A DNA stretch of 32,564 nt from Desulfobulbaceae bacterium (GTDB taxonomy: Bacteria > Desulfobacterota > Desulfobulbia > Desulfobulbales > Desulfobulbaceae). Positions within the stretch are counted from its first letter, which is position 1. Every line of letters begins with the position of its first letter. Made by a program: the position numbers and the translations under genes. Below, one piece after another: positions 2,505 to 29,328 of this stretch. The notes under the pieces were generated by a model. That model was not told the DNA's origin. It searched no databases and saw only the letters and a program-made list of their open reading frames with translations. The DNA lies in assembly GCA_015484845.1 (NCBI GenBank), contig WFUT01000105.1:1-32564 (forward strand), in the 5' to 3' direction.

Positions 2505-4976
<2,472 letters not shown>

Positions 4977-5153: not shown

Positions 5154-5210
5154 CGCGCCCTTGATGCCTCGCATCTCCGGCGATATTGCCAATCGCAGAA
5201 TTGCGGTTTC
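5154..5210 (+). repeat. Dispersed repeat copy A (half element): CGCGCCCTTGATGCCTCGCATCTCCGGCGATATTGCCAATCGCAGAATTGCGGTTTC
   Basis: Near-identical to segments at 6571-6631 (reverse orientation) and 29926-29988. Confidence 0.85.
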
Positions 5211-5637
5211 AATGGTTGCTGCGGTTGTGCTGCGCGTGCTCGCCGCTCAGGGCCTCCAGGATCGGACAGTCGTCCACCGAGCCGTGACCGTCGCATTGTG
5301 CGACCAACTGTTCCAGGCCGGCCTGGATCCTGGTGAGATCCCTGATCCGATGCCTGATCTTGTCGATCTTCTTTGTTGCCCGGGCCTTGATATCCGCCTT
5401 GGTGGCGGCGGGATCACTGCTCAGCACCAGCAGTTCCCCTATCTCGGCCAGGGTGAAGCCCAGCGATTTTGCCCGCCTGATGAAACGGAGACGGAGGGCG
5501 TCATCCTCGCTGTAGAGCCGATAGTTGGACTCGCTCCTGGCCGCGGTCTCGATCAGACCGCACCGTTCATAAAAACGGATGGTGTCGGTGGAGACTCCGA
5601 CCCGTTTCGCCAACTTGCCAATGGTGAGTGTTTCCAT
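5209..5637 (-). CDS. MerR-family heavy-metal-responsive transcriptional regulator (CueR/ZntR/CadR-like)
   Basis: METLTIGKLAKRVGVSTDTIRFYERCGLI HTH; C-terminal metal-loop cysteines CDGHGSVDDCPIL. Start set at the METLTIG Met within the longer ORF. Confidence 0.92.
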   Translation of the reverse strand: METLTIGKLAKRVGVSTDTIRFYERCGLIETAARSESNYRLYSEDDALRLRFIRRAKSLGFTLAEIGELLVLSSDPAATKADIKARATKKIDKIRHRIRDLTRIQAGLEQLVAQCDGHGSVDDCPILEALSGEHAQHNRSNH

Positions 5638-5671
5638 GTCGTCTCCCTGGTGATGTCCTCTTCTGTGGTAT

Positions 5672-5703
5672 ACTCTACACATTGGACCATGGACCATGGT
5701 CAA
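5672..5703 (-). promoter_or_regulatory. Candidate MerR-type promoter/operator of merR-copA: TTGACC-N20-TAGAGT with dyad ACCATGG-T-CCATGGT in the spacer
   Basis: Minus strand TTGACCATGGTCCATGGTCCAATGTGTAGAGT, 35 bp upstream of the merR start; long spacer and central dyad are typical of MerR-family promoters. Confidence 0.65.
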
Positions 5704-5726
5704 GGCTGAAGGGTAAAAAAAGATCG

Positions 5727-5960
5727 TCAGCTCAGGAGATCCCTGAACAGGCTGACCAGGGTACCGATGGGCCCGCCGGTATCCACCGCGCCGGTATAGA
5801 GGGCGATGGCGCTCCACAGGCCCAGCAGTATGCCAACAGCCACCAGCAGGAACAGGAGCACCATGGCAATGGTTTCACCGATGGTGCCGCCCTCGTCCTG
5901 CTCGTCTTCTCTCTGCTGCATCAGAACGGTCTCTTCATGAAACTGAAACAAGGTATTCAT
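5727..5960 (-). CDS. Small single-TM protein (77 aa), paralogue of the next gene
   Basis: MNTLFQFHEE...VGILLGLWSAIALYTGAVDTGGPIGTLVSLFRDLLS; SD GGAGGG before ATG at 5960. Confidence 0.75.
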   Translation of the reverse strand: MNTLFQFHEETVLMQQREDEQDEGGTIGETIAMVLLFLLVAVGILLGLWSAIALYTGAVDTGGPIGTLVSLFRDLLS

Positions 5961-5989: not shown

Positions 5990-6202
5990 CTACATCCCTG
6001 TCACGGCACGGACAAAGTCGGTGAGCAGGGCAAAGGGGCCGCCGCTGGCCACCATGCCGGCGAACAGGGCAACAATGCCCCAGAGGCCGATCAGGATACC
6101 GCCGGCCCCCACCGTGGCCAGGCCGGTCAGGATGGCGATGTCCATTACCGAGGCATCGCGGGGTGCTGTCTTCTCACGTACACGGGTCATTGCTGCTTTC
6201 AT
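5990..6202 (-). CDS. Small single-TM protein (70 aa), paralogue of 5727..5960
   Basis: MKAAMTRVREK...GGILIGLWGIVALFAGMVASGGPFALLTDFVRAVTGM; SD GAGGAAGAG before ATG at 6202 (6232 possible). Confidence 0.75.
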   Translation of the reverse strand: MKAAMTRVREKTAPRDASVMDIAILTGLATVGAGGILIGLWGIVALFAGMVASGGPFALLTDFVRAVTGM

Positions 6203-6260
6203 GATCTCTTCCTCGAAGGTTGGATGTTTCATGTCACTTTGTGGTCTTTACCTGTCACAT

Positions 6261-6276
6261 TTCATGGACCGTGCCA
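6261..6276 (-). promoter_or_regulatory. Candidate sigma-54 -24/-12 promoter TGGCACGGTCCATGAA
   Basis: Perfect TGGCACG -24 block with correct spacing to a TG at -12 (consensus TTGC; C replaced by A). Confidence 0.6.
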
Positions 6277-6371
6277 GGATGAAACAAAACATCAACGCAT
6301 ACATAACACTGTAGGATGAAAGAAAAAATAAACCCTTACCAGGGATTGCCCCCAGGGTGGCATGGCAGGGG

Positions 6372-6388
6372 TATCCAAAAACAGGACA
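6372..6388. promoter_or_regulatory. Candidate activator-binding dyad TATC-N9-GACA (TATCCAAAAACAGGACA)
   Basis: Same TRTCYA-N7-GACAGC pattern as 12958-12974 and 24316-24332; about 96 bp upstream of the 6261-6276 promoter. Confidence 0.5.
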
Positions 6389-6506
6389 GCGGAAAATATC
6401 TCCCGCCCCGGACCGTCTCATTTCAAGACAGCAGCCCGTACCCGGCGCCGCAGGGCGGTGTCGCGGGGTCGGGGTGGCGGCCAGGGGTCCGGGAAAAACC
6501 CGGAGG

Positions 6507-6741: not shown

Positions 6742-9700
6742 TCAGGAAACCTGTTTCTGCTTCCTGCTGAGCCGACGTTCCCGGAACTGGAGATACATGC
6801 CGTAGATAATCGGAATGACGAGCAGGCTGAGGATGGTGGCCGTGACCATGCCCCCCACCATGGGGGCGGCGATCCGCCGCATGACCTGTGAGCCGGTACC
6901 GGTGCCGTACATGATGGGCAGCAGGCCGGCAATGGTGGCGGTGGCGGTCATGGCGATGGGCCGAACACGCTCCGAGGTGCCGGTATGGACCGCCTCCATG
7001 ATCTCTCTGCTGTTCAGGCTGCGCCCGCCGACCTCCCGGTGCTTCTTTTCCAGCTCATGGTCGATGAAGGTGAGCACAAGCACACCGATCTCGGACGAGA
7101 CCCCTGCCAGGGCGATGAAGCCCACCACGATGGCCACCGACAGGTTGAAGCCGGAGAACCAGATCAGCCAGATCCCGCCCACCAGGGCAAAGGGAATGGA
7201 GAGCATGACGATAACCGGCTCTGCCAGGTTGCGGAAATTGAAATAGAGCAGCAGGAAGATCGCCACCAGTGTCAGGGGCACCACCAGGCGCAGCCGCTCT
7301 CTGGCCCGCTGCATGTACTCGAACTGGCCGGACCAGGAGAGGGTGTAGCCGGCCGGCAGCTTGAGCTCGCTGGCGATCTTCTTCTTGGCCCGGGCCACAT
7401 AGCCGCCGATGTCCGAGCTGGAGATATCGACATAGATCCAGGCATTGGGCCGCGCGTTTTCGCTCTTGATCACTGGCGCGCCCCGGGCAAGACGGATATC
7501 GGCCACCTGGTTGAGCGGTATCTGCGCCCCGGCCGGCGTGGGCACCAGGGCCCGGCCGATGCTCTGCGGCGAATCCCGCAGGTCACGGGGATAACGGACA
7601 TTGATGGGATAACGCTCAAGACCCTCGATGGTCTCGGAGACGTTCATGCCGCCGATGGCCGACATGATGACATCCTGGACATCGTCCACCGTCAGCCCGT
7701 AGCGGGCCGCCTCCTTCCGGTTGACCCGGATATCGAGGTAGTAGCCACCCACGGCCCGGTCACCGTAGGCCGAGATCGTGCCGGGCAGGGTCTTCATGAT
7801 GTTTTCGATGTCCAGGGAAAGGCGCTGCAGCGTTTTCAGGTCCGGACCGCTGACCTTGATGCCGATGGGCGTCTTGATGCCCGTGGACAGCATGTCGATC
7901 CGCGTCTTGATGGGCATGGTCCAGGCGTTGGCCAGGCCGGGCATGCGCAGTTCCTTGTCCATCTCCTTCATCAGGTCGCTGGTGGTCTTGGAGGGATCAG
8001 GCCACTGGTCCCGGGGTTTCAGCCGGATGGTGGTCTCGATCATGGACAGGGGCGCCGGGTCGGTGGCGGTCTCGGCCCGTCCCACCTTGCCGAACACGGA
8101 CTGCACCTCGGGAAAGGTCTTGATGATCTTGTCGGTCTGCTGCAGGATCTCCTTGGCCTTGGTGATGGAGATGCCGGGGAAGGTGGACGGCATGTAGAGG
8201 ATATCGCCCTCGTCCAGCGGCGGCATGAACTCGGAACCAAGCCGCGACAGGGGGTACCAGGTCGCGGCCACCAGGGCGACGGCGCCGAGCAGGACCAGCC
8301 AGCGCAGCTTGATAAACAGGCGCAGGATGGGGCTGTGGACAAAGATCAGCATCCGGTTGATGGGATTTTTCGCCTCGGCAATGATCTTGCCGCGGATGAA
8401 GTACCCCATCAGGACCGGCACCAGGGTCACGGCCAGGAAGGCGGAAGCGGCCATGGCATAGGTCTTGGTGAAGGCCAGGGGTGAAAACAGCCGCCCCTCC
8501 TGGGCCTGGAGCGTGAAGATGGGCAGGAAGGAGACCGTGATGATGAGCAGGGAGAAGAAGAGCGCCGGTCCCACCTCCCGGGCCGCATCGCCCATGATCC
8601 GCCAGCGGGTGGCGGAGTCGATGACGGTGCCATTTTTTGCCGCCGCCTCCAGGTGCTTGTGCCCGTTCTCGATCATGACGATGGCACCGTCCACCATGGC
8701 GCCGATGGCGATGGCGATGCCGCCCAGCGACATGATGTTGGCGTTGATGCCCTGCAGTTTCATGATGATGAAGGCCATGAGGATGCCCATGGGCAGGCTG
8801 GCGATGGCCACCAGGGCGGAACGGAAATGGAGCAGGAAGACCACGCAGACAATCGAGACAACGATGAACTCCTCGATCAGCTTGCTCTTGATGTTCTCGA
8901 TGGCCCGCTCGATGAGATTGCCACGGTCATAGACCGGCACGATCTCCACCCCCTTGGGCAGTCCCTTTTTCAGCTCTGCCAGCTTGGCGCGCACCGCCTC
9001 GATGGTGGCCAGGGCGTTGTCACCATAGCGCATGATGATCACCCCACCAGCCACCTCGCCCTGACCGTTGAGCTCGGCGACCCCGCGCCGCAGCTCCGGT
9101 CCGAGATGGATGTTGGCCACGTCGCCGAGTCGTATCGGCGTGCCCATCCGGTCGGTTTTGAGGGGAATCTGCTTCAGGTCGTCGATGGAGCGGATATAGC
9201 CCAGGCCGCGCACCATGTACTCGGTCTCGGCCATCTCGATGAGCCGCCCGCCCACGTCACTGTTGGAGCGCTGGATCGCCCGGCGGACCTGCTGGATGGG
9301 GATGTTATAGGTGGCCAGCTTGTCCGGGTCCACCTCGACCTGGTACTGCTTGACATAACCGCCGATGGAGGCCACCTCGGCCACGCCGGGCACGGTCTGC
9401 AGGGGATAACGCAAATACCAGTCCTGGAGCGAACGGAGCTGCGCCAGATCCAGGTTGCCGGTACGGTCGACCAGGGCGTACTCGTAGACCCAGCCGACAC
9501 CGGTGGCATCGGGTCCCAGGGCCGGGGTCACGCCGGGCGGCAGCCGGGAGGAGACATAGTTGAGGGACTCCAGCACCCTGGAGCGGGCCCAGTACATGTC
9601 GGTGCCGTCCTCGAAGATCACGTAGACAAAGGAGAGACCGAAAAAGGAGTACCCCCGCACCACCTTAGATCGCGGCACGGCCAGCATGGCGGTGGTGAGC

Positions 9701-9903
9701 GGATAGGTCACCTGGTCCTCCACCACCTGCGGCGCCTGGCCGGGGTACTCGGTGAAGATGATGACCTGGACGTCGGACAGGTCGGGAATGGCGTCCAGGG
9801 GCGTGTTCTTCAGGGTCCAGATACCGGCGACGGCGATGAGGGCCATGCCGATGAGCACCAGGAACCTGTCCCGGATCGAGAGGTCGATTATCTTCTGTAT
9901 CAT
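6742..9903 (-). CDS. cusA: CusA/CzcA-family heavy-metal RND efflux permease
   Basis: 1053 aa; MIQKIIDLSIRDRFLVLIGMALIAVAGIWTLKNTPLDAIPDLSDVQVIIFTEYPGQAPQVVEDQVTYPLTTAM; AETATDPAPLSMIETTIRLKP and RIDMLSTGIKTPIGIKVSG as in CusA. Confidence 0.95.
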   Translation of the reverse strand: MIQKIIDLSIRDRFLVLIGMALIAVAGIWTLKNTPLDAIPDLSDVQVIIFTEYPGQAPQVVEDQVTYPLTTAMLAVPRSKVVRGYSFFGLSFVYVIFEDGTDMYWARSRVLESLNYVSSRLPPGVTPALGPDATGVGWVYEYALVDRTGNLDLAQLRSLQDWYLRYPLQTVPGVAEVASIGGYVKQYQVEVDPDKLATYNIPIQQVRRAIQRSNSDVGGRLIEMAETEYMVRGLGYIRSIDDLKQIPLKTDRMGTPIRLGDVANIHLGPELRRGVAELNGQGEVAGGVIIMRYGDNALATIEAVRAKLAELKKGLPKGVEIVPVYDRGNLIERAIENIKSKLIEEFIVVSIVCVVFLLHFRSALVAIASLPMGILMAFIIMKLQGINANIMSLGGIAIAIGAMVDGAIVMIENGHKHLEAAAKNGTVIDSATRWRIMGDAAREVGPALFFSLLIITVSFLPIFTLQAQEGRLFSPLAFTKTYAMAASAFLAVTLVPVLMGYFIRGKIIAEAKNPINRMLIFVHSPILRLFIKLRWLVLLGAVALVAATWYPLSRLGSEFMPPLDEGDILYMPSTFPGISITKAKEILQQTDKIIKTFPEVQSVFGKVGRAETATDPAPLSMIETTIRLKPRDQWPDPSKTTSDLMKEMDKELRMPGLANAWTMPIKTRIDMLSTGIKTPIGIKVSGPDLKTLQRLSLDIENIMKTLPGTISAYGDRAVGGYYLDIRVNRKEAARYGLTVDDVQDVIMSAIGGMNVSETIEGLERYPINVRYPRDLRDSPQSIGRALVPTPAGAQIPLNQVADIRLARGAPVIKSENARPNAWIYVDISSSDIGGYVARAKKKIASELKLPAGYTLSWSGQFEYMQRARERLRLVVPLTLVAIFLLLYFNFRNLAEPVIVMLSIPFALVGGIWLIWFSGFNLSVAIVVGFIALAGVSSEIGVLVLTFIDHELEKKHREVGGRSLNSREIMEAVHTGTSERVRPIAMTATATIAGLLPIMYGTGTGSQVMRRIAAPMVGGMVTATILSLLVIPIIYGMYLQFRERRLSRKQKQVS

Positions 9904-9931: not shown

Positions 9932-11344
9932 CTACCTGGTGGTCGGTGTCCTGTCTTTTCCGGTTCCGGTCTTCATGTCCTTCATCGCCTTGCCGTCCTT
10001 CGCATTGTTCGCATTCTTCGCGTCCTTCGCGTCCTTGTTCATGTCCATCTTCATGGCCGGCTTGCCGGCGGCGGCATTGGCCTCCAGCATCTTGGCCGTG
10101 GCCTCCTTGAGCTTGGACTCGGAATCGATCAGGAACTGGGCCGAGGTCACCACGGTCTCGTGTTCCTTGAGGCCGCTGACGATCTCGGTATAGCCGTCGG
10201 CCACGAGGCCGGTGACCACCTTGCGCGGCTCGAAGAGTCCCTCGCCGCGGCGGATGAAGACCAGGGCCTCGGTGCCGGAGCGGACAATGGCCTCGGAGGG
10301 GACGGCCAGCACGTTGTCCCGCCTGGATGCGTGGATGGTGACGCCGGCAAACATGCCGGGCCTGAGCCCGAAGTCCCTGTTCCTGAAGACCAGCCGCACC
10401 TTGACGGTCCGCGTCTCGCCCTCCTCGTAGGGATAGATATAGTCGACCGTGCCGCTGAAGGAGGTTCCGGGCTGGGTGGTCACGGTCATGGTCGCCCTGT
10501 CGCCGGTCCGGATCCAGGGCAGGTCATCCTCGTAGACATCGGCATAGACCCAGACCGTGGACAGGTCCGCGATCCGGTACAGCTCGTCCTTGGGGGTCAG
10601 GTAGTGGCCGGCCCGGATGCCCATGCGGATAACTGTCCCCTGGTAGGGAGAGAGGATGGTGATATCCCGCTTGATCTTGCCGGTCTTCTCCAGGGTGTTG
10701 ATCACCGCATCGGGAATGTCGAAAAACTCGAGCCGGCTCCTGGTCGCCTCCACCAGGCGCTGCGCCCCCTCCCGGATCTCGGCCAGGGAACTCCTGGCAA
10801 GGATCCTGGCATTGGCCAGGGCCAGGAGATATTCCTCCTGGGTGGAGACCAGCTCCGGGGAATAGATGGAAAAGAGCGGCTGTCCCTTTTTCACCTCCTG
10901 GCCGGTCTTGGAGACAAACAGCTTCTCCGCCCAGCCGCTGAACTTGGAGTGGACCATGCTCAGGCTCGCCTCGTTAAAGGCGACCCGGGCCGGGGTCCGC
11001 ACCTCGTGACTCATGGACCGCCTCATGGCCATGGCCGTGCGCACGCCGATCTTCTGGACCATGACCGGGTCGATCTTCACGGTACCCGGGGGGCCCGTGG
11101 TATCATCATCGGCATAGACCGGGATGTAGTCCATGCCCATCTCGTCCTTGGCCGGTACCGGCGAGGTGACGGCCGGGTTCATGGGACTGCGGTAGAAGAG
11201 AGGCTTCTTTTTTTCCTGTGGTGGCTTTTCCCCGGCCGTGGCCGTCCGGATCACCGGGAGACCGCCGACCAGGAAGGTGGGCATGGCCGCGGCCGCGGCC
11301 AGCAACCCGGCAGACAGCAGCAGGGCATGGATTGTTCGTTTCAT
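9932..11344 (-). CDS. cusB: Efflux RND periplasmic adaptor (CusB-like membrane fusion protein)
   Basis: Signal/anchor N-terminus, YRSPMNPAVTSPVPAKDEMGMDYIPVY, HlyD-type fold motifs; 4-bp overlap with the upstream TolC-family gene. Confidence 0.92.
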   Translation of the reverse strand: MKRTIHALLLSAGLLAAAAAMPTFLVGGLPVIRTATAGEKPPQEKKKPLFYRSPMNPAVTSPVPAKDEMGMDYIPVYADDDTTGPPGTVKIDPVMVQKIGVRTAMAMRRSMSHEVRTPARVAFNEASLSMVHSKFSGWAEKLFVSKTGQEVKKGQPLFSIYSPELVSTQEEYLLALANARILARSSLAEIREGAQRLVEATRSRLEFFDIPDAVINTLEKTGKIKRDITILSPYQGTVIRMGIRAGHYLTPKDELYRIADLSTVWVYADVYEDDLPWIRTGDRATMTVTTQPGTSFSGTVDYIYPYEEGETRTVKVRLVFRNRDFGLRPGMFAGVTIHASRRDNVLAVPSEAIVRSGTEALVFIRRGEGLFEPRKVVTGLVADGYTEIVSGLKEHETVVTSAQFLIDSESKLKEATAKMLEANAAAGKPAMKMDMNKDAKDAKNANNAKDGKAMKDMKTGTGKDRTPTTR

Positions 11345-12690
11345 CGCTTTTCTCCCTGGGTAACCTGGACGCCGGTTGCCGCCTCGAGGCCGGCCAGGGC
11401 CTTGAAACCGCCGGTCAGCAGGCGCCAGTAGGTTATCTTGTAATTGTAGAGGGCCAACTGGGCCCGGACCACGTTGAGGAAATCCACCTTGTTGACCTGG
11501 TAGCCCTTGAGCATGGCCGCAGCGGTCTGCTCGGCCTGCGGAATGATGGCGTTCTGGTAGAAGCGGCTCTGCCTGCGGGATGATTCGTATTCACTGAGTT
11601 CGCGCAGCACTTCCGCCGTGACCTGGTCCCTGGTGTCCCGCAGCCGGTGTTCCACGGCCAGGGTCTCGCTGGTCCGCTGGGCAACGGCCCGGTCCTGCTT
11701 GGTGGCGCTCCAGATGGGCAGGTTGAGACTGAGCCTGAACGACGCAAAATCCGCCCGGTCCCTGCCATCCGGCGCATCCTGCCGGTAGCCGTAGGCAGCG
11801 CCGACGGTAAAATCCGGGTAATAGTCCTTGCGGGCCAGCTCGGTCTTCGTGACAGCGGCATCCTTTTCCCTGGCCAGGGCCAGGAGGGCGGGCCGTTCCC
11901 GGAGGGCCTCCTCGAGCAGGGTCTGTTCCGGCGCCACATCCGGCAAAGTGGTGGCAACCTTTGCCGGCAGGGTGATGCAGAACGATGATGGTGCGTCGAT
12001 GAGGGCATTGAGGTCGGCCTTTTTCTTTTTCAGGCTGTTCTCCAGGGCGATCTCGCGGTCCAGGAGCTTGGACAGCTCGAGCTGGGCCAGGAGCACGTCC
12101 TGCTGCAGTCCCTTGCCCACGGCGTACTTGGTGCGGGCAGCGCCGACCGTGGCGCGCAGGAGGTCCTGGTTGTCGCGGACAACACCCAGGGTCTGCTCCA
12201 GGTAGTAGATATCCCACCAGGTATTCTTCACCTTCCTGATGAGCTGCAGCCTGGCCTCGTCCACCTGGCTTGCGGCCGCGTCGGCCAGCGAGGTGGCCGC
12301 CTCTTCGCGCAGCTTCAGCTTGCCGGGAAACGGGAACTTCTGGCTCAGCCCCACCTGCATCTGGGTCATGTTCTCCTGGCCGGCATCAAAGGTGTCCACG
12401 GGCAGGTTCAGGGCGCCCAGCGACAGGACCGGGTCGGGCAGGGAACCGGCCTGGTCGGGCACGGCCGCCAGGGCCTCGTAGCGGGCCTGGATGGCGGAGA
12501 GGCCGGGATTCTTGGCCATGGCGATCTCCACGGCCCGGTCCAGGGACAGTTCCTCGCACTGCCCATTGTCCGCGGCAGGTTGCGTCCGGGCCCAGGCCCC
12601 GGCCACCATGGACAGCAGCAGGGCTGCCGCCAGCAGGACGACCGCGACCGGTATACTTCTGTTACTCGTTCTTTCAGGTTTCCGTATCAC
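11341..12690 (-). CDS. cusC: TolC-family outer membrane efflux protein (CusC-like); GTG start
   Basis: OEP-type repeats; start codon GTG at 12690 with AAGGAGGAG SD. Confidence 0.9.
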   Translation of the reverse strand: MIRKPERTSNRSIPVAVVLLAAALLLSMVAGAWARTQPAADNGQCEELSLDRAVEIAMAKNPGLSAIQARYEALAAVPDQAGSLPDPVLSLGALNLPVDTFDAGQENMTQMQVGLSQKFPFPGKLKLREEAATSLADAAASQVDEARLQLIRKVKNTWWDIYYLEQTLGVVRDNQDLLRATVGAARTKYAVGKGLQQDVLLAQLELSKLLDREIALENSLKKKKADLNALIDAPSSFCITLPAKVATTLPDVAPEQTLLEEALRERPALLALAREKDAAVTKTELARKDYYPDFTVGAAYGYRQDAPDGRDRADFASFRLSLNLPIWSATKQDRAVAQRTSETLAVEHRLRDTRDQVTAEVLRELSEYESSRRQSRFYQNAIIPQAEQTAAAMLKGYQVNKVDFLNVVRAQLALYNYKITYWRLLTGGFKALAGLEAATGVQVTQGEKR

Positions 12691-12740: not shown

Positions 12741-12756
12741 AGCATGAAGCATGCCT
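12741..12756 (-). promoter_or_regulatory. Candidate sigma-54 -24/-12 promoter AGGCATGCTTCATGCT upstream of cusCBA
   Basis: GGCA and TGCT with exact GG-N10-GC spacing; about 50 bp from the GTG start. Confidence 0.55.
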
Positions 12757-12927
12757 GGTGGTGGGAAACGTGACCGCGAGGCATGCCCCCTGCTCCGGCC
12801 GTCCGGACGAAAACCGCTCCCCGGGCAACCATTCCGGCCAGACGACACAGCCTGAAGCGATGATGCAGACTCCACCCTTGGGGATGGTCCGAAGATACCC
12901 GGCCGGAGATCCGACCGTCCAGGAACA

Positions 12928-12939
12928 GGACACCTGTCC
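12928..12939. promoter_or_regulatory. Short dyad GGACA-CC-TGTCC in the divergent cusC/SHOCT intergenic region
   Basis: Inverted repeat read directly; next to the TGTC-N9-GACA dyad. Confidence 0.35.
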
Positions 12940-12957
12940 CTTTCAAGACCGCCATAG

Positions 12958-12974
12958 TGTCTACTTTATGGACA
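12958..12974. promoter_or_regulatory. Candidate activator-binding dyad TGTC-N9-GACA (TGTCTACTTTATGGACA)
   Basis: Same 17-bp architecture as at 24316-24332; between two divergent sigma-54-like promoters. Confidence 0.5.
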
Positions 12975-13092
12975 GCCAAGGTATGGCGACCTCCTTCCCC
13001 CCGCGCCCGTCTCCATGCCCGGCATGGCACAGGTCGTCGTGGCCACGCCGTTTCCGCACAGTGACGATCACCCGCGGAGAGGGACCGGGGCA

Positions 13093-13122
13093 GACGCCCT
13101 CGCCCGCGTAAGCTCGGGCGTC
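13093..13122. repeat. Hairpin GACGCCC-N16-GGGCGTC
   Basis: Perfect 7-bp inverted repeat upstream of the SHOCT operon. Confidence 0.5.
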
Positions 13123-13219
13123 CCGGCCACATCCTGCCATCGGGAACAGGGGAACGCACGGTGATATATACCCGGCGCGTTATGGCAGGGCCATGCCGGC
13201 GGAAGATGAAGGCCAGGGC

Positions 13220-13235
13220 TGGCATCAAACGTGCA
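13220..13235 (+). promoter_or_regulatory. Candidate sigma-54 -24/-12 promoter TGGCATCAAACGTGCA
   Basis: TGGCA and TGCA with exact spacing, 50 bp upstream of the SHOCT ORF. Confidence 0.6.
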
Positions 13236-13284: not shown

Positions 13285-13536
13285 ATGATGCGCTATGGAT
13301 TTCACGGAGGAAGCTGGTTATGCGGCCCCGGGGCCTTTTTTCCCGGACCGCTGGGCTGGGTCATCACCCTGCTCTTCTGGGCCCTGATCATCTACCTGGT
13401 CTTCTGGATATTCAAGACCGTTTTTGCCGGAAAATCCGGCCATGACCCCCGCCCCCTGGACACACTCAAGCAACGGTATGCCCGGGGCGAAATCACTGAG
13501 GACGAATTCAAACGGATGAAGTCCGAACTCTCGTAG
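13285..13536 (+). CDS. Small membrane protein with C-terminal SHOCT domain
   Basis: TM segment then LDTLKQRYARGEITEDEFKRMKSELS, the SHOCT signature; AAGGAG SD. Confidence 0.88.
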   Translation: MMRYGFHGGSWLCGPGAFFPGPLGWVITLLFWALIIYLVFWIFKTVFAGKSGHDPRPLDTLKQRYARGEITEDEFKRMKSELS

Positions 13537-13547
13537 GAGGTGACAAT

Positions 13548-13697
13548 ATGAAACGATTGATCTCGATCCTTCTGTTCCTTGCCCTGGCGGTGATCCTCTC
13601 TGGTTGCGGCCACCACGGAATGCACGGCTGGATGGTGGACAGCGGCCAGCAGGGCAATGGTCATCAGCGGGAGATCCGGGTCGGGAACCCGGCCTGA
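13548..13697 (+). CDS. Small (49 aa) putative lipoprotein, His/Met containing; not in the supplied ORF list
   Basis: TAGGAGG SD then MKRLISILLFLALAVILSGCGHHGMHGWMVDSGQQGNGHQREIRVGNPA*; lipobox LSGC; 11 bp after the SHOCT stop and 9 bp before the next gene. Confidence 0.75.
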   Translation: MKRLISILLFLALAVILSGCGHHGMHGWMVDSGQQGNGHQREIRVGNPA

Positions 13698-13706
13698 GAG
13701 AGCAGC

Positions 13707-14072
13707 ATGTACTGCGACTGGGGTAGTGGCTGGCATGACTCCCCTTACTATTATGGCGGGTTGGCTGCGCTGCTCCTCCTGGTCTGCATCCTTGGCATCG
13801 CAGCCTTTGTATATTGTTATACCAGGAGAAAACGTTGCGCTCAACCACAATGTCCCGCCTGCGGAGGAGCAGTGGAAGAAGTCTTTCTCCGCTGCCCCTT
13901 CTGCGGCACGGCCCTGAAACGCCACTGCCCGGCGTGCCACAGGGTCATTGGCGCGGACTTCCGGTTCTGCCCCTACTGCAGTGCCGCCACCGGCCCGGAC
14001 GCGGCAGACCCTGCCCGGGACGCAACGGTCACCGACCCTGCCCCTGCAACGGGAACGGGCAACCAGGCCTGA
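13707..14072 (+). CDS. Single-TM protein with double zinc-ribbon
   Basis: N-terminal TM followed by CPACGG..CPFCG and CPACHR..CPYCS pairs. Confidence 0.8.
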   Translation: MYCDWGSGWHDSPYYYGGLAALLLLVCILGIAAFVYCYTRRKRCAQPQCPACGGAVEEVFLRCPFCGTALKRHCPACHRVIGADFRFCPYCSAATGPDAADPARDATVTDPAPATGTGNQA

Positions 14073-14289: not shown

Positions 14290-14766
14290 ATGAAAAGGAC
14301 AACAGCACTGATCGCACCACTGCTCACCATCGCCCTGCTCACCGCCCCGGCCATGGCCCAGACCGGCAGGGCCACCCATCCGACCCCGCCACCCCGGCAG
14401 CAGATGCACGCCAATATGATGATGGGAGGCGGTATGGGCATGGGCATGACAGGCATGGGCATGATGGATGGTAACGGGACCGACTGGCGGTCGGAACAGT
14501 GGAATCGTGGCTGCATGGGCATGATGGGCGGCTTCATGATGAGCATCATGACACCGGACCAGCAGCAGCAGTTCCTTGACGCCACCAGGGACCTGCGCCG
14601 GCAGATGCTGGAGCTCCGCTTCACCTACATGGAGACCATGCGCGATCCCAAGGCCACCCCTGCCGACCTGGCCAGGATCGAAAGCAAGATGCTCGATATC
14701 CGCAAGCAGATGATGGCCAAGCTGGAAAAGCTGCTGAACAGGAAGATACCACCGGCAACCAGGTGA
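14290..14766 (+). CDS. Secreted Met-rich periplasmic protein, ZraP/Spy/CnrR-like metal-binding chaperone
   Basis: Signal peptide, MMMGGGMGMGMTGMGMM cluster, helical domain TPDQQQQFLDATRDLRRQMLELRFTYMETMR. Confidence 0.75.
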   Translation: MKRTTALIAPLLTIALLTAPAMAQTGRATHPTPPPRQQMHANMMMGGGMGMGMTGMGMMDGNGTDWRSEQWNRGCMGMMGGFMMSIMTPDQQQQFLDATRDLRRQMLELRFTYMETMRDPKATPADLARIESKMLDIRKQMMAKLEKLLNRKIPPATR

Positions 14767-14957
14767 CAGAAACCCGGCAGACCGGGCTGCCGACAGTACC
14801 ACTGAACCATAACGACCTGGATCCTGCTCTCCACGCCTGCTGCGCCGTCAAGGGGGATGGAAGTGTTTTTTACGCCTCTTGTGTCCCCGATGCCCCGCTT
14901 TGCCGGCAACCGGCCAGGTGCAGGATCCAGGCATGATCTCTCCAGGAGGACAAGACA

Positions 14958-15944
14958 GTGAAACCATCCATGGCAGGCTATGGCCTGCTCCTTGTCACGG
15001 GAATCTTTCTTCTGAGCGGCTGCGGCATGACCGATATCGGCTCCACCATCCGTGGCGATCACTACCTGATGACCGGCGACTACCGTGCCGGCGAGGCAAG
15101 TTTCCGGCAGAGCGTCCGCGAACGCCCCGACAGTGCCGGCAACAACTACTACCTGGGCCGCTTCCTGCTCGCGGAGAACAGGGCGAAACAGGCCCTGCCC
15201 TGGCTGGAAAAGGCGGTCCGCCTGGAGCCGGACAACCCCGACTACCACTTCTGGCTCGGCATGGCCCTGGGCGCCACCGGCAGGAGCAAGGCGGAACGAA
15301 GGCAATATGAACAGGCCCTGGCCCTGAACCCGAAACACCTGCAGTCCCTGATCTACCTGGGCAATGCCGAGCTCAAGCGCGGCCGGTACAGCCGGGCCCT
15401 GGCCCTCTACCGGAAGGCGCTCAAGATCTGGCCCGACAGCCCGACAGCCCTCTACAACCGGGCCCTGATCATGAAGGTCCTGGGCCGAACGCCGGAGGAA
15501 AAAATCGGCTGGCTGCAGTACCTTGACCGCTATCCCTCCGGATCACTGGCCATCCGGGCCACCAACCACCTGAACCGCATCGGTGACTTTTCCTATCGCA
15601 ACCATTATCTCGGCCGCCGGACCCTCACCCTGACCAAGATATGGTTCAGGCCCTTTACCGCCGAGCTGGATCCCTATTCCTACCCGGCCCTGGACCTGGT
15701 GGGCGCCACGGCATCCAACATGAAAAAGGGGACCCTGCAGGTGGTCGTCTTTCAGAAGAACGACCGGGAACTGGCAAAAAAACGGGCCGCAAGCGTGAAG
15801 AAATACCTGCAGAAGAAGTTTCCCCGCCTGCAGGGCCGGAAGATCAGGATCTCCTGGTTTGACCGCAGCGAGGTCTTCACCGTGGACGGCAAGCGGCAGA
15901 AATCCGGGGAATCGGTCCGCTTCTTTCTCACTGGCTGGAAATAG
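14958..15944 (+). CDS. TPR-repeat lipoprotein with C-terminal OmpA/LytR_C-like region; paralogous to the periplasmic part of 16838..17950
   Basis: Lipobox LLSGC, TPR repeats, C-terminal ELAKKRAASVKKYLQKKFPRLQGRKIRISWFDRSEV. Confidence 0.8.
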   Translation: MKPSMAGYGLLLVTGIFLLSGCGMTDIGSTIRGDHYLMTGDYRAGEASFRQSVRERPDSAGNNYYLGRFLLAENRAKQALPWLEKAVRLEPDNPDYHFWLGMALGATGRSKAERRQYEQALALNPKHLQSLIYLGNAELKRGRYSRALALYRKALKIWPDSPTALYNRALIMKVLGRTPEEKIGWLQYLDRYPSGSLAIRATNHLNRIGDFSYRNHYLGRRTLTLTKIWFRPFTAELDPYSYPALDLVGATASNMKKGTLQVVVFQKNDRELAKKRAASVKKYLQKKFPRLQGRKIRISWFDRSEVFTVDGKRQKSGESVRFFLTGWK

Positions 15945-20729: not shown

Positions 20730-22082
<1,353 letters not shown>

Positions 22083-22093
22083 TCCCTGTCCTT

Positions 22094-23854
22094 TTATGTA
22101 GTGCCGTTCGTCATCTTCCTGCGGCCGTCAACCGGCAGGACCACGGTGATGGTGGTGCCCTCGCCCGGCCGCGACTCCACCTCGAAAAAGCCACCGTGCT
22201 GTTCCACTATCTGGTGGCTGACGGCCAGGCCAAGACCGGTTCCCGACTTGCGGGTCGAGAAGAAGGGGTCAAACATCTGCTCCCGCTCTTCCCTGCTCAT
22301 GCCCCTGCCGCTGTCGGCCACGCTGATGCGGACCTCTTCCCTGTCCCGGCGGCAGGAGAGAGTGATCTCCGAGCCGGGGGAGGAGGCGCTGACCGCGTTT
22401 TTCAGGAGGTTCAGGAGCACCTGCAGGAGCAGGTCCGGGTCCGCGCCGACCGGCTCGTCGCACGAGCTTTGCAGCCGCAGCGTGACGGTGTTGCTGGTAA
22501 AGTCATGCTCCAGGAGCCTGGCGGTCTTCTCGAACAGCTCGCCCAGCCGCACCGGCTGCAGTTCCGGCTCCCGGGGACGGGAGAACTGGAGCAGGGCCGA
22601 GATCGAGGCATTGAGCCGGTCCACCTCGCCGATCATCAGCTCGGCATACTCCCGCCCTGCCTCGTCACCGGGCCTGGAGCCGAAGTACTGGGCAAAGCCG
22701 CGCAGCGTGCCCAGGGGATTGCGGATCTCGTGGGCGATTCCCGCCGCCATCCGGCCCAGGGATGCCAGCCGCCGCGACCGTTCGAGTTGCTCTTCCATGG
22801 CCTTGATCTCGCGCAGGTCACGCAGGATCAGGACAGCACCCAGGACCGCATCGTCAGTATCCCGGAGCAGGGAGCTGCTGATCTCCACCGGCACCCGCCT
22901 GCCGTCTTCATGGCAGAACTCGTAGCCCACCGACAGGACCTCCCGGCCCCCGGCAAGGGAGGCAATGGGCCAGTCGGCAAAGAGCTCCTCCAGCCGCCTG
23001 CCCAGCAGCTCCTCCATGGGCCGGCCCATGATGGCCACGGCCCTGGCATTGCAGGAGACGATGCGGCCTTCGGAGTCCAGGGTCACCAGGCCGTCGGGCA
23101 TGGACTCGATGACGTTCCTGGTGTAGAGCTGCATGTTGTGCAGCGTGGTCCGGGTCACCCGCATGCCCTGGTAAAGAAAGAGGAAGTAAAACCCGGCACT
23201 GCCCAGGAGAAAGAGAAGTCCGGCCATGAAGAAGGAGTGACGGATATCCTGCTGCCTGGCCTTGATGAACTCGCCGCTGTGCAGGCCGAGGAAGATGATC
23301 TTGCGGCTCTGCGCCCGGTCGCCGTCCCACCAGGCCATCCCTGACGAGCACTGGCCGTGGCCCATCATGCCGTTCGATGATCCCCGGCCCGGCCCGGCAA
23401 GATGAAACTCCTTGGCTACCTGGAAGATGGGATCCTCGCCCTGCTTTTCGAACATGGTGGTGACCGGTCCGGACGAGGCAAGGATGGTTTTGCAGACCGC
23501 CGGATTCACCAGGGGCAGTGGCCGGCCGGAGCTGGCAATGACCTCCCCCTTTTCGGAGACAATGAGGATGTAGGCGATGCGCTCCGACCTGGCCGTCTCC
23601 CTGACCAGGGTGACGATGGGCGGAGTCTGGCCCATCATCTCGTGCATCATGGTGGTGCGGGCGCCGGCCTCGAAGCTCCGGATGAGCAGCAGTCCCTCGT
23701 CGAGAAGAAAGCTCTCCATGATGTTCTGCTCGCGGGAGAGATTGCGTACCGTGCTCACCACCAGGATGCCGGCAAGCATGAAGGTGGCCAGGAGGATGGC
23801 GAGGCCCAGGCGTGAGAACCTGAAGGGAATGCGTCCGGAAGAAGGTATCTGCAT
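22094..23854 (-). CDS. Two-component sensor histidine kinase with periplasmic sensor and PAS domain (ZraS/HydH-like)
   Basis: Two TM segments flanking a periplasmic domain, PAS, H-box GIAHEIRNPLGTLRGFAQYF, NLLKNAVSA, ADSGRGMS, GTGLGLAVSHQIVEQHGG. Confidence 0.93.
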   Translation of the reverse strand: MQIPSSGRIPFRFSRLGLAILLATFMLAGILVVSTVRNLSREQNIMESFLLDEGLLLIRSFEAGARTTMMHEMMGQTPPIVTLVRETARSERIAYILIVSEKGEVIASSGRPLPLVNPAVCKTILASSGPVTTMFEKQGEDPIFQVAKEFHLAGPGRGSSNGMMGHGQCSSGMAWWDGDRAQSRKIIFLGLHSGEFIKARQQDIRHSFFMAGLLFLLGSAGFYFLFLYQGMRVTRTTLHNMQLYTRNVIESMPDGLVTLDSEGRIVSCNARAVAIMGRPMEELLGRRLEELFADWPIASLAGGREVLSVGYEFCHEDGRRVPVEISSSLLRDTDDAVLGAVLILRDLREIKAMEEQLERSRRLASLGRMAAGIAHEIRNPLGTLRGFAQYFGSRPGDEAGREYAELMIGEVDRLNASISALLQFSRPREPELQPVRLGELFEKTARLLEHDFTSNTVTLRLQSSCDEPVGADPDLLLQVLLNLLKNAVSASSPGSEITLSCRRDREEVRISVADSGRGMSREEREQMFDPFFSTRKSGTGLGLAVSHQIVEQHGGFFEVESRPGEGTTITVVLPVDGRRKMTNGTT

Positions 23855-23893: not shown

Positions 23894-24109
23894 TTACGGG
23901 AGCACGTGGTGCATCAGCTCCAGTGGGTCTTCAATGCCGGCCAGGCCCAGGTAGGCGGCAACCGACCAGAGCGCGATGGTCACGGTGACCGCGCCGATGG
24001 CCAGGAGCATGGCCAGGGCAAGACGTTCCATCAGGTCGGGCCTGGAACGCTCCCTTTTCCCGGTGGCGGACAGGGCCCTGTTTCGTTTGCTTGTCCGGGT
24101 GGCGATCAT
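23894..24109 (-). CDS. Small single-TM protein (71 aa), first gene of the kinase/regulator operon
   Basis: MIATRTSKRNRALSATGKRERSRPDLMERLALAMLLAIGAVTVTIALWSVAAYLGLAGIEDPLELMHHVLP; TGGAGGGA SD before ATG at 24109. Confidence 0.75.
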   Translation of the reverse strand: MIATRTSKRNRALSATGKRERSRPDLMERLALAMLLAIGAVTVTIALWSVAAYLGLAGIEDPLELMHHVLP

Positions 24110-24188
24110 GATGTTCTCCCTCCAGGATATCCCATTTTCTGTTGCCGTACCAGCATCCTTCATGGATTCTGCCGGGACCGGCCATCAG

Positions 24189-24225: not shown

Positions 24226-24241
24226 AGCAATCATCGGGCCA
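24226..24241 (-). promoter_or_regulatory. Sigma-54 -24/-12 promoter TGGCCCGATGATTGCT
   Basis: Differs from TGGCACG-N4-TTGCW at one position, with exact spacing. Confidence 0.78.
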
Positions 24242-24315
24242 CAAAAATCAACATATTGGATTTACATGATTATTATCACCAGGAATGCGCCGGGTGACAA
24301 CAGGAGGGAACGTGC

Positions 24316-24332
24316 TGTCCAGGAATGCGACA
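24316..24332. promoter_or_regulatory. Candidate activator-binding dyad TGTC-N9-GACA (TGTCCAGGAATGCGACA)
   Basis: Shared 17-bp dyad, about 75 bp upstream of the 24226-24241 promoter. Confidence 0.55.
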
Positions 24333-29128: not shown

Positions 29129-29328
29129 TTCCCGGTCCCGTCTTGTCTTCAGCCGGGACAGGGAAGGTAGATGGAAGACCCTCTCCTGAACCTGCCGGTT
29201 GCAGGAGTTACGGGACCGTGCCCGTGCAGGACTGAGATAAAAAAAAGCGGGGTGCTGCCAGTGCAAGGAGGACAAGACCGGCACCACCCCTTCCCCCCTG
29301 GATTCCAGGGCCCGTGGAGATGATCCGG

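Follow-up and report, generated by a model that had tools for sequence, protein, structure and literature searches.

A predicted bidirectional sigma-54 control region between cusCBA and a divergent SHOCT-protein operon in a Desulfobulbaceae bacterium

In E. coli, CusR is an OmpR-family regulator. In the Desulfobulbaceae contig described here, as in the CusRS-CusCFBA system, a two-component system is tied to a homologous Cu/Ag RND pump, but the linked regulator is of the NtrC type and is accompanied by sigma-54 boxes. The window that we analysed is one whole contig (G000:C105; 32,564 bp) from a 3.38-Mb draft genome.

The pump is encoded on the minus strand by cusA (6742-9903; Cu/Ag RND pump), cusB (9932-11344; adaptor) and cusC (11341-12690; outer-membrane channel). 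CusA exceeded the TIGR00914 cut-off and matched E. coli CusA over its full length. In the alignment to E. coli CusA (3t51_A), the three methionines of the metal site, M573/M623/M672, are kept (residues counted by eye). CusB exceeded the cut-off of the RND adaptor family and fell below that of the CusB model; CusC had TolC-family matches and has orthologs in other genera. The divergent plus-strand operon encodes a SHOCT-domain small membrane protein (13285-13536; PF09851 above cut-off), a 49-aa lipoprotein with the lipobox LSGC in its translation (13548-13697) and a membrane-anchored double zinc ribbon protein (13707-14072; PF12773 above cut-off). A plus-strand gene for a Met-rich, ZraP/Spy-like periplasmic protein (14290-14766), with weak LTXXQ and Metal_resist matches only, is probably part of this operon; in other genera, ZraP-like genes are grouped with SHOCT and zinc ribbon genes.

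The two-component system is encoded by a minus-strand operon that starts with a gene for a small membrane protein (23894-24163; an ORF conserved in G005 and G006), followed by those for a ZraS/AtoS-like membrane sensor kinase (22094-23854) and the NtrC-type response regulator that we propose as the activator (20730-22082). The regulator exceeded the cut-offs of PF00072 (Response_reg), PF00158 (Sigma54_activat) and PF02954 (HTH_8), corresponding to a receiver, an AAA+ sigma-54 domain and a Fis-type HTH. The N-terminal part of the kinase, which is presumably periplasmic, contains a conserved EAGARTTMMHxMMG stretch. The genome has one match to rpoN and encodes ~24 full sigma-54 activators.

The original prediction placed two outward-facing −24/−12 boxes with exact GG-N10-GC spacing between cusC and the SHOCT gene, and both are there: AGGCATGCTTCATGCT at 12741-12756 (minus), the candidate cusCBA promoter, and TGGCATCAAACGTGCA at 13220-13235 (plus), the candidate promoter of the SHOCT operon. 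Each combines this core with conserved flanks and a position at the start of an operon. Between them are two 17-mers predicted to be activator sites: site 1, CGTCCAGGAACAGGACA (12916-12932), and site 2, TGTCTACTTTATGGACA (12958-12974). The counterpart of site 1 in G006 is TGTCCAGAAAAAGGACA. Site 2 had been noted as a dyad with the architecture of 24316-24332, and that architecture was indeed found at both positions. The spacing of the two 17-mers is 42 bp, or four helical turns. Promoters of this class have paired activator sites 100-300 bp upstream; the tandem 17-mers lie at 176 and 218 bp from the cusC box and at 262 and 304 bp from the SHOCT box.

As motifs alone, the boxes are not significant, since TGGCAY-N6-TGCW with one mismatch occurred at 11 sites in the window vs 10.5 expected; significance from match counts was dropped because the counts equal chance. 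Such counts would suit a reading in which the boxes are fortuitous and a sigma-70 promoter, controlled by a regulator of the MerR/CueR or OmpR/CusR type, drives cusCBA, as would the presence of a CueR-like MerR protein encoded at 5209-5817 (TIGR02044, 128 bits vs a cut-off of 147). However, no sigma-70-like promoter was found in the cusC-SHOCT region. The genome has three strong OmpR-family matches, none of them in the window or on C222, the contig that carries the best cusC paralog; the linkage of an OmpR-family regulator to the pump that characterizes CusRS-type systems was thus not seen on these contigs, in keeping with the earlier proposal that the pump is not controlled through a CusR-type regulator. 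Together with the conservation of the boxes within the genus and their statistics outside it, described below, these results render the sigma-70 reading most improbable. For the 17-mers, TGTC-N9-GACA occurred 3 times in the window vs 0.46 expected.

The locus is also carried by two congeners, Desulfobulbus sp. HyVt-437 (G005; L002) and a Desulfobulbaceae genome (G006; L003/L081). Among the three genomes of the genus, 28% of the columns of the cusC-SHOCT intergenic region are identical, and the L003 region has ~300 extra bases. We scanned the three-congener alignment with 535 sliding 16-bp windows. The SHOCT box was the most conserved block of the region (14/16 columns invariant), and the cusC box was among the best 16-bp blocks, with 13/16 columns invariant vs the 28% background. 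Site 2 had 14 invariant columns of 17 (best 16-bp window, 13/16), and site 1 was also in the top conserved blocks. Alignment of relatives had been suggested as a check on the region, and both boxes and site 2 emerged from it as the most conserved blocks. A further dyad that had been singled out, GGACA-CC-TGTCC (GGACACCTGTCC, at 12928-12939), is present between the boxes but is not conserved in the two congeners: 7/12 columns are kept and the dyad is broken in L002 and L003. We rejected it as an operator. The conserved unit at this position is site 1, the right half of which is the GGACA that makes up the left half of the dyad. Overall, the predicted control region stands above chance through its conservation and joint architecture.

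A 17-mer rule was derived from the window and L003 and then tried on other genera, using 25 loci (297 kb) chosen by protein similarity only. In these loci, 24 site-box pairs in the activating orientation were found at 85-160 bp, and first-order Markov shuffles yielded a mean of 0.2 pairs and a maximum of 2. Pairs in the wrong orientation were absent at 85-160 bp, with one at 160-180 bp. The distances from 17-mer to box fell into two clusters, 111-116 and 145-159 bp upstream, and the boxes with 17-mers precede SHOCT, zinc-ribbon, cusC, copA, ZraP-type and kinase genes. Several site-box matches came from genomes that lack the regulator; located in genes, they appear to be fortuitous and were set aside.

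Matrices were trained on 39 out-of-genus boxes and 46 out-of-genus 17-mers, then applied to the window. The training boxes, none of which came from the window's genus, had been picked by their nearness to a site and by a first matrix that approximated the published consensus. Of the ~65,000 positions in the window, the four best boxes were at 12741 (cusC; score 20.6), 6261 (17.6), 24226 (14.8) and 13220 (SHOCT; 11.5). The five best 17-mers were at 6414 (20.96), 12958 (20.95), 6372 (18.6), 24316 (13.4) and 12916 (13.2). With the trained matrix, a candidate box at 12779-12794 (plus) reached a score of only 6.0. Of the three TGTC-N9-GACA matches, the last, at 29144, scored 5.4, had no box and was treated as chance.

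The tandem sites could serve cusC only, the SHOCT box being separate, weak or differently activated. Within the genus, the distances from the cusC box to the sites are near constant (161-176 and 203-218 bp), whereas the distance from the SHOCT box to its nearest site is 125, 262 or 347 bp. In the window, this box, at 262 bp from its nearest site, is also the weakest of the four. Nevertheless, the SHOCT box is the block of the region that the genus has conserved best, no other site is nearer to it, and SHOCT genes in other genera have the same 17-mer at 111-155 bp. Moreover, enhancer-bound activators generally act across hundreds of bases. We therefore regard service to cusC only as quite improbable and favour sites shared by both promoters. 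The shared divergent arrangement recurs in G097, G100 and G102. Divergent boxes flank the tandem sites of G097 and G100, with distances of 177/220 and 180/222 bp to one box and of 115/158 and 117/159 bp to the other; the closer boxes face a sensor-fragment-cusCBA cluster and copA. In G102, tandem sites separate the kinase-regulator operon from SHOCT (116/158 and 122/164 bp). The predicted arrangement in the window is one instance of a recurring plan.

Orthologs of the regulator encoded at 20730-22082 (65-92% identical) occur in 67 of the 258 genomes of the order; in other genera, those beside cusCBA or SHOCT/zinc-ribbon/ZraP genes are 70-83% identical. The cusCBA genes adjoin the ortholog in G008, in the order kinase-regulator-cusCBA, and in G009, G010 and G011, where the regulator adjoins cusC. 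SHOCT/zinc-ribbon/ZraP genes adjoin it in G001, G097, G100 and G234, SHOCT in G102 and a weakly similar ZraP-type gene in G045. Loci in which the ortholog stands beside such targets mostly have the same site and spacing, and sites with a box also precede the kinase operons of G011, G044, G072 and G175. The exact tandem-site pattern was found in 15 of the 258 genomes (reversed control, 0), of which 13 have a regulator ortholog (Fisher p = 6e-7, a value that overstates independence because the cells are related genomes). In G235, the fourteenth of the 15, the ortholog is cut at a contig end beside the sites. Outside the order, the phylum sample held one further match to the tandem motif. An exact tandem match is absent in 54 of the 67 genomes with the regulator, for which the strictness of the pattern may be the reason.

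With so many sigma-54 activators in the genome, the promoters and 17-mers could be real and yet be bound by a different one; consistent with this, no ortholog of the proposed regulator was detected in G012 and G116, which have the motif. G012 is a draft genome in which a close cusC is also missing, so its regulator region may be unassembled. The repeated linkage of the regulator to the targets, the site in its own promoter and its co-occurrence with the motif all argue against another activator, which we judge to be unlikely. The conservation and linkage strongly support, in silico, the original prediction that the local NtrC-type regulator activates cusCBA and the SHOCT operon together.

The promoter of the kinase-regulator operon is predicted to consist of the box TGGCCCGATGATTGCT at 24226-24241 (minus), which aligned in three congeners, and the activator site TGTCCAGGAATGCGACA at 24316-24332. 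This box had been overlooked, as had a third promoter region at 6261-6430. In the latter, a −24/−12-like box, TGGCACGGTCCATGAA (6261-6276, minus), has GA in place of GC at −12 and is partly conserved in G006. It is directed toward a small membrane protein gene (5990-6232, minus; G006 ortholog 84.8% identical) near the MerR and copA genes. The predicted activator sites TATCCAAAAACAGGACA (6372-6388) and CGTCTCATTTCAAGACA (6414-6430) are spaced 42 bp apart, and both are conserved in G006. Boxes with TGA, TGT or TGG for TGC at −12 were seen in small-gene and sensor-fragment promoters of the genus (6261-6276; L080:12339; L080:4837); apart from this deviation, they match strongly and have tandem sites at the usual distance. 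The CueR-like MerR gene stands beside copA (2505-4976), which may be under two regulators in the window.

Contig C218, found by motif search alone, has sites at 8254 and 8298 and a box at 8410 (TGGCACGTTGCGTGCT), followed by a gene for a periplasmic ZraP-type protein (PF13801, 46 bits vs a cut-off of 29). A ZraP-type gene is the classic target of ZraR-type regulators, and these sites and box predict the same here. On contig C96, a DUF4118-type sensor fragment is preceded by tandem sites. Exact TGTCY-N7-GGACA matches in the rest of the genome mostly fall within long reading frames and have no box.

These results are consistent with the hypothesis, to which we assign a probability of roughly 0.83, that 12741-13235 is a bidirectional sigma-54 control region with shared tandem sites, activated by the regulator encoded at 20730-22082. 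In the proposed mechanism, the kinase would respond to a signal in the periplasm, for which excess Cu(I) or Ag(I) is the likeliest candidate, and phosphorylate the regulator. The less likely signals are those of ZraS, Zn or general envelope stress. The active regulator would bind the tandem TGYCY-N7-RGACA sites and contact RNA polymerase-sigma-54 waiting at the two outward-facing promoters, of which 12741-12756 would drive cusCBA and 13220-13235 the SHOCT, lipoprotein and zinc-ribbon genes, with the ZraP-like gene probably included. Further targets of this regulator would be its own operon (24226-24332), the 6261-6430 promoter region and the unlinked ZraP-type gene on C218.

The solved structure most closely related to the regulator is that of ZraR. 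In E. coli, the spacer that separates the divergent zraP and zraSR is bound by ZraR (PMC8249747), which has few direct targets besides zraP and zraSR (PMC7657598). The system described here likewise pairs a membrane kinase with an NtrC-type regulator, is predicted to be autoregulated and has a ZraP-type gene among its predicted targets. By contrast, the Cus pump, SHOCT and zinc-ribbon proteins and probably copA are members of its predicted regulon, and its likely signal is Cu/Ag rather than Zn. Because the curated ZraR and ZraS cut-offs were missed (513 vs 760 and 300 vs 479, respectively), it is not a ZraSR equivalog, although it would work like ZraSR and CorSR.

According to passages of the report on CorSR of Myxococcus xanthus (PMC3707914), this system comprises a sigma-54-type response regulator and a periplasm-facing kinase, and is needed for the copper induction of a CopA-containing operon with putative sigma-54 promoters. 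Here, too, an NtrC-type regulator is linked to copper genes with sigma-54 boxes, and promoters of copA and cusCBA have sites in several genera. Unlike the predicted regulon, the CorSR-controlled operon in those passages contains a multicopper oxidase but lacks a Cus pump; the same passages describe neither a tandem operator nor a shared divergent enhancer (PMC3707914). The CorSR kinase has a HAMP domain (PMC3707914), whereas the kinase in the window has PAS. Desulfovibrio vulgaris is a sulfate reducer that, like the genome studied here, has many sigma-54 activators (PMC4641369). The words copper, heavy metal and efflux are absent from the main text of the paper on its sigma-54 regulome, which therefore appears to describe no such regulon (PMC4641369). 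In the open-licence literature, we found no paper describing an NtrC-type regulator of cusCBA. What is new is the Cus pump as a member of a predicted sigma-54 regulon, and on this account we count the system as a new variation on ZraSR and CorSR.

More broadly, we think it probable that the order Desulfobulbales has a Cu/Ag envelope regulon in which one family of sigma-54 activators, using a 17-bp tandem operator of its own, stands in for CusSR. Such a regulon would unite the Cus pump, CopA, ZraP-type, SHOCT and zinc-ribbon proteins and sensor fragments apparently lacking the ATPase domain, its enhancer pairs being repeatedly shared by divergent promoters. The predictions provide a concrete operator sequence and geometry, with targets across many genomes, and suggest that SHOCT, zinc-ribbon and small membrane proteins as yet without a name act in Cu/Ag or envelope stress. 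They also imply that a Cus pump can stand under a class of regulator entirely different from that of E. coli.

The DUF4118-type sensor fragment looks like a recurrent regulon member. Such fragments occur at G000:C96:3568-4300 (L170) and L080:4086-4802, with similar ones in L144, L174, L177 and L186. They resemble the N-terminal half of the kinase encoded at 41-1132 and are often behind tandem 17-mers and a box. Tandem 17-mers also precede a conserved small lipoprotein-like gene at G000:C199:23811-23871 (L184:3812-3871) and G006:C185:12373-12431 (L183:4374-4432), with no −24/−12 box at the usual distance. In the window, a −24/−12-like sequence, AGGCATGATCTCTCCA (14929-14944; score 9.8), lies just upstream of a gene at 14958 for a TPR/OmpA lipoprotein, and no 17-mer is close by. 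Finally, the segment 16235-18900 contains genes for a sigma-factor-like protein, which from its sequence we take to be of the ECF type, a TPR membrane protein and a protein whose long tail is rich in Gly and His; these genes stay near the same cluster in G006 and G011.
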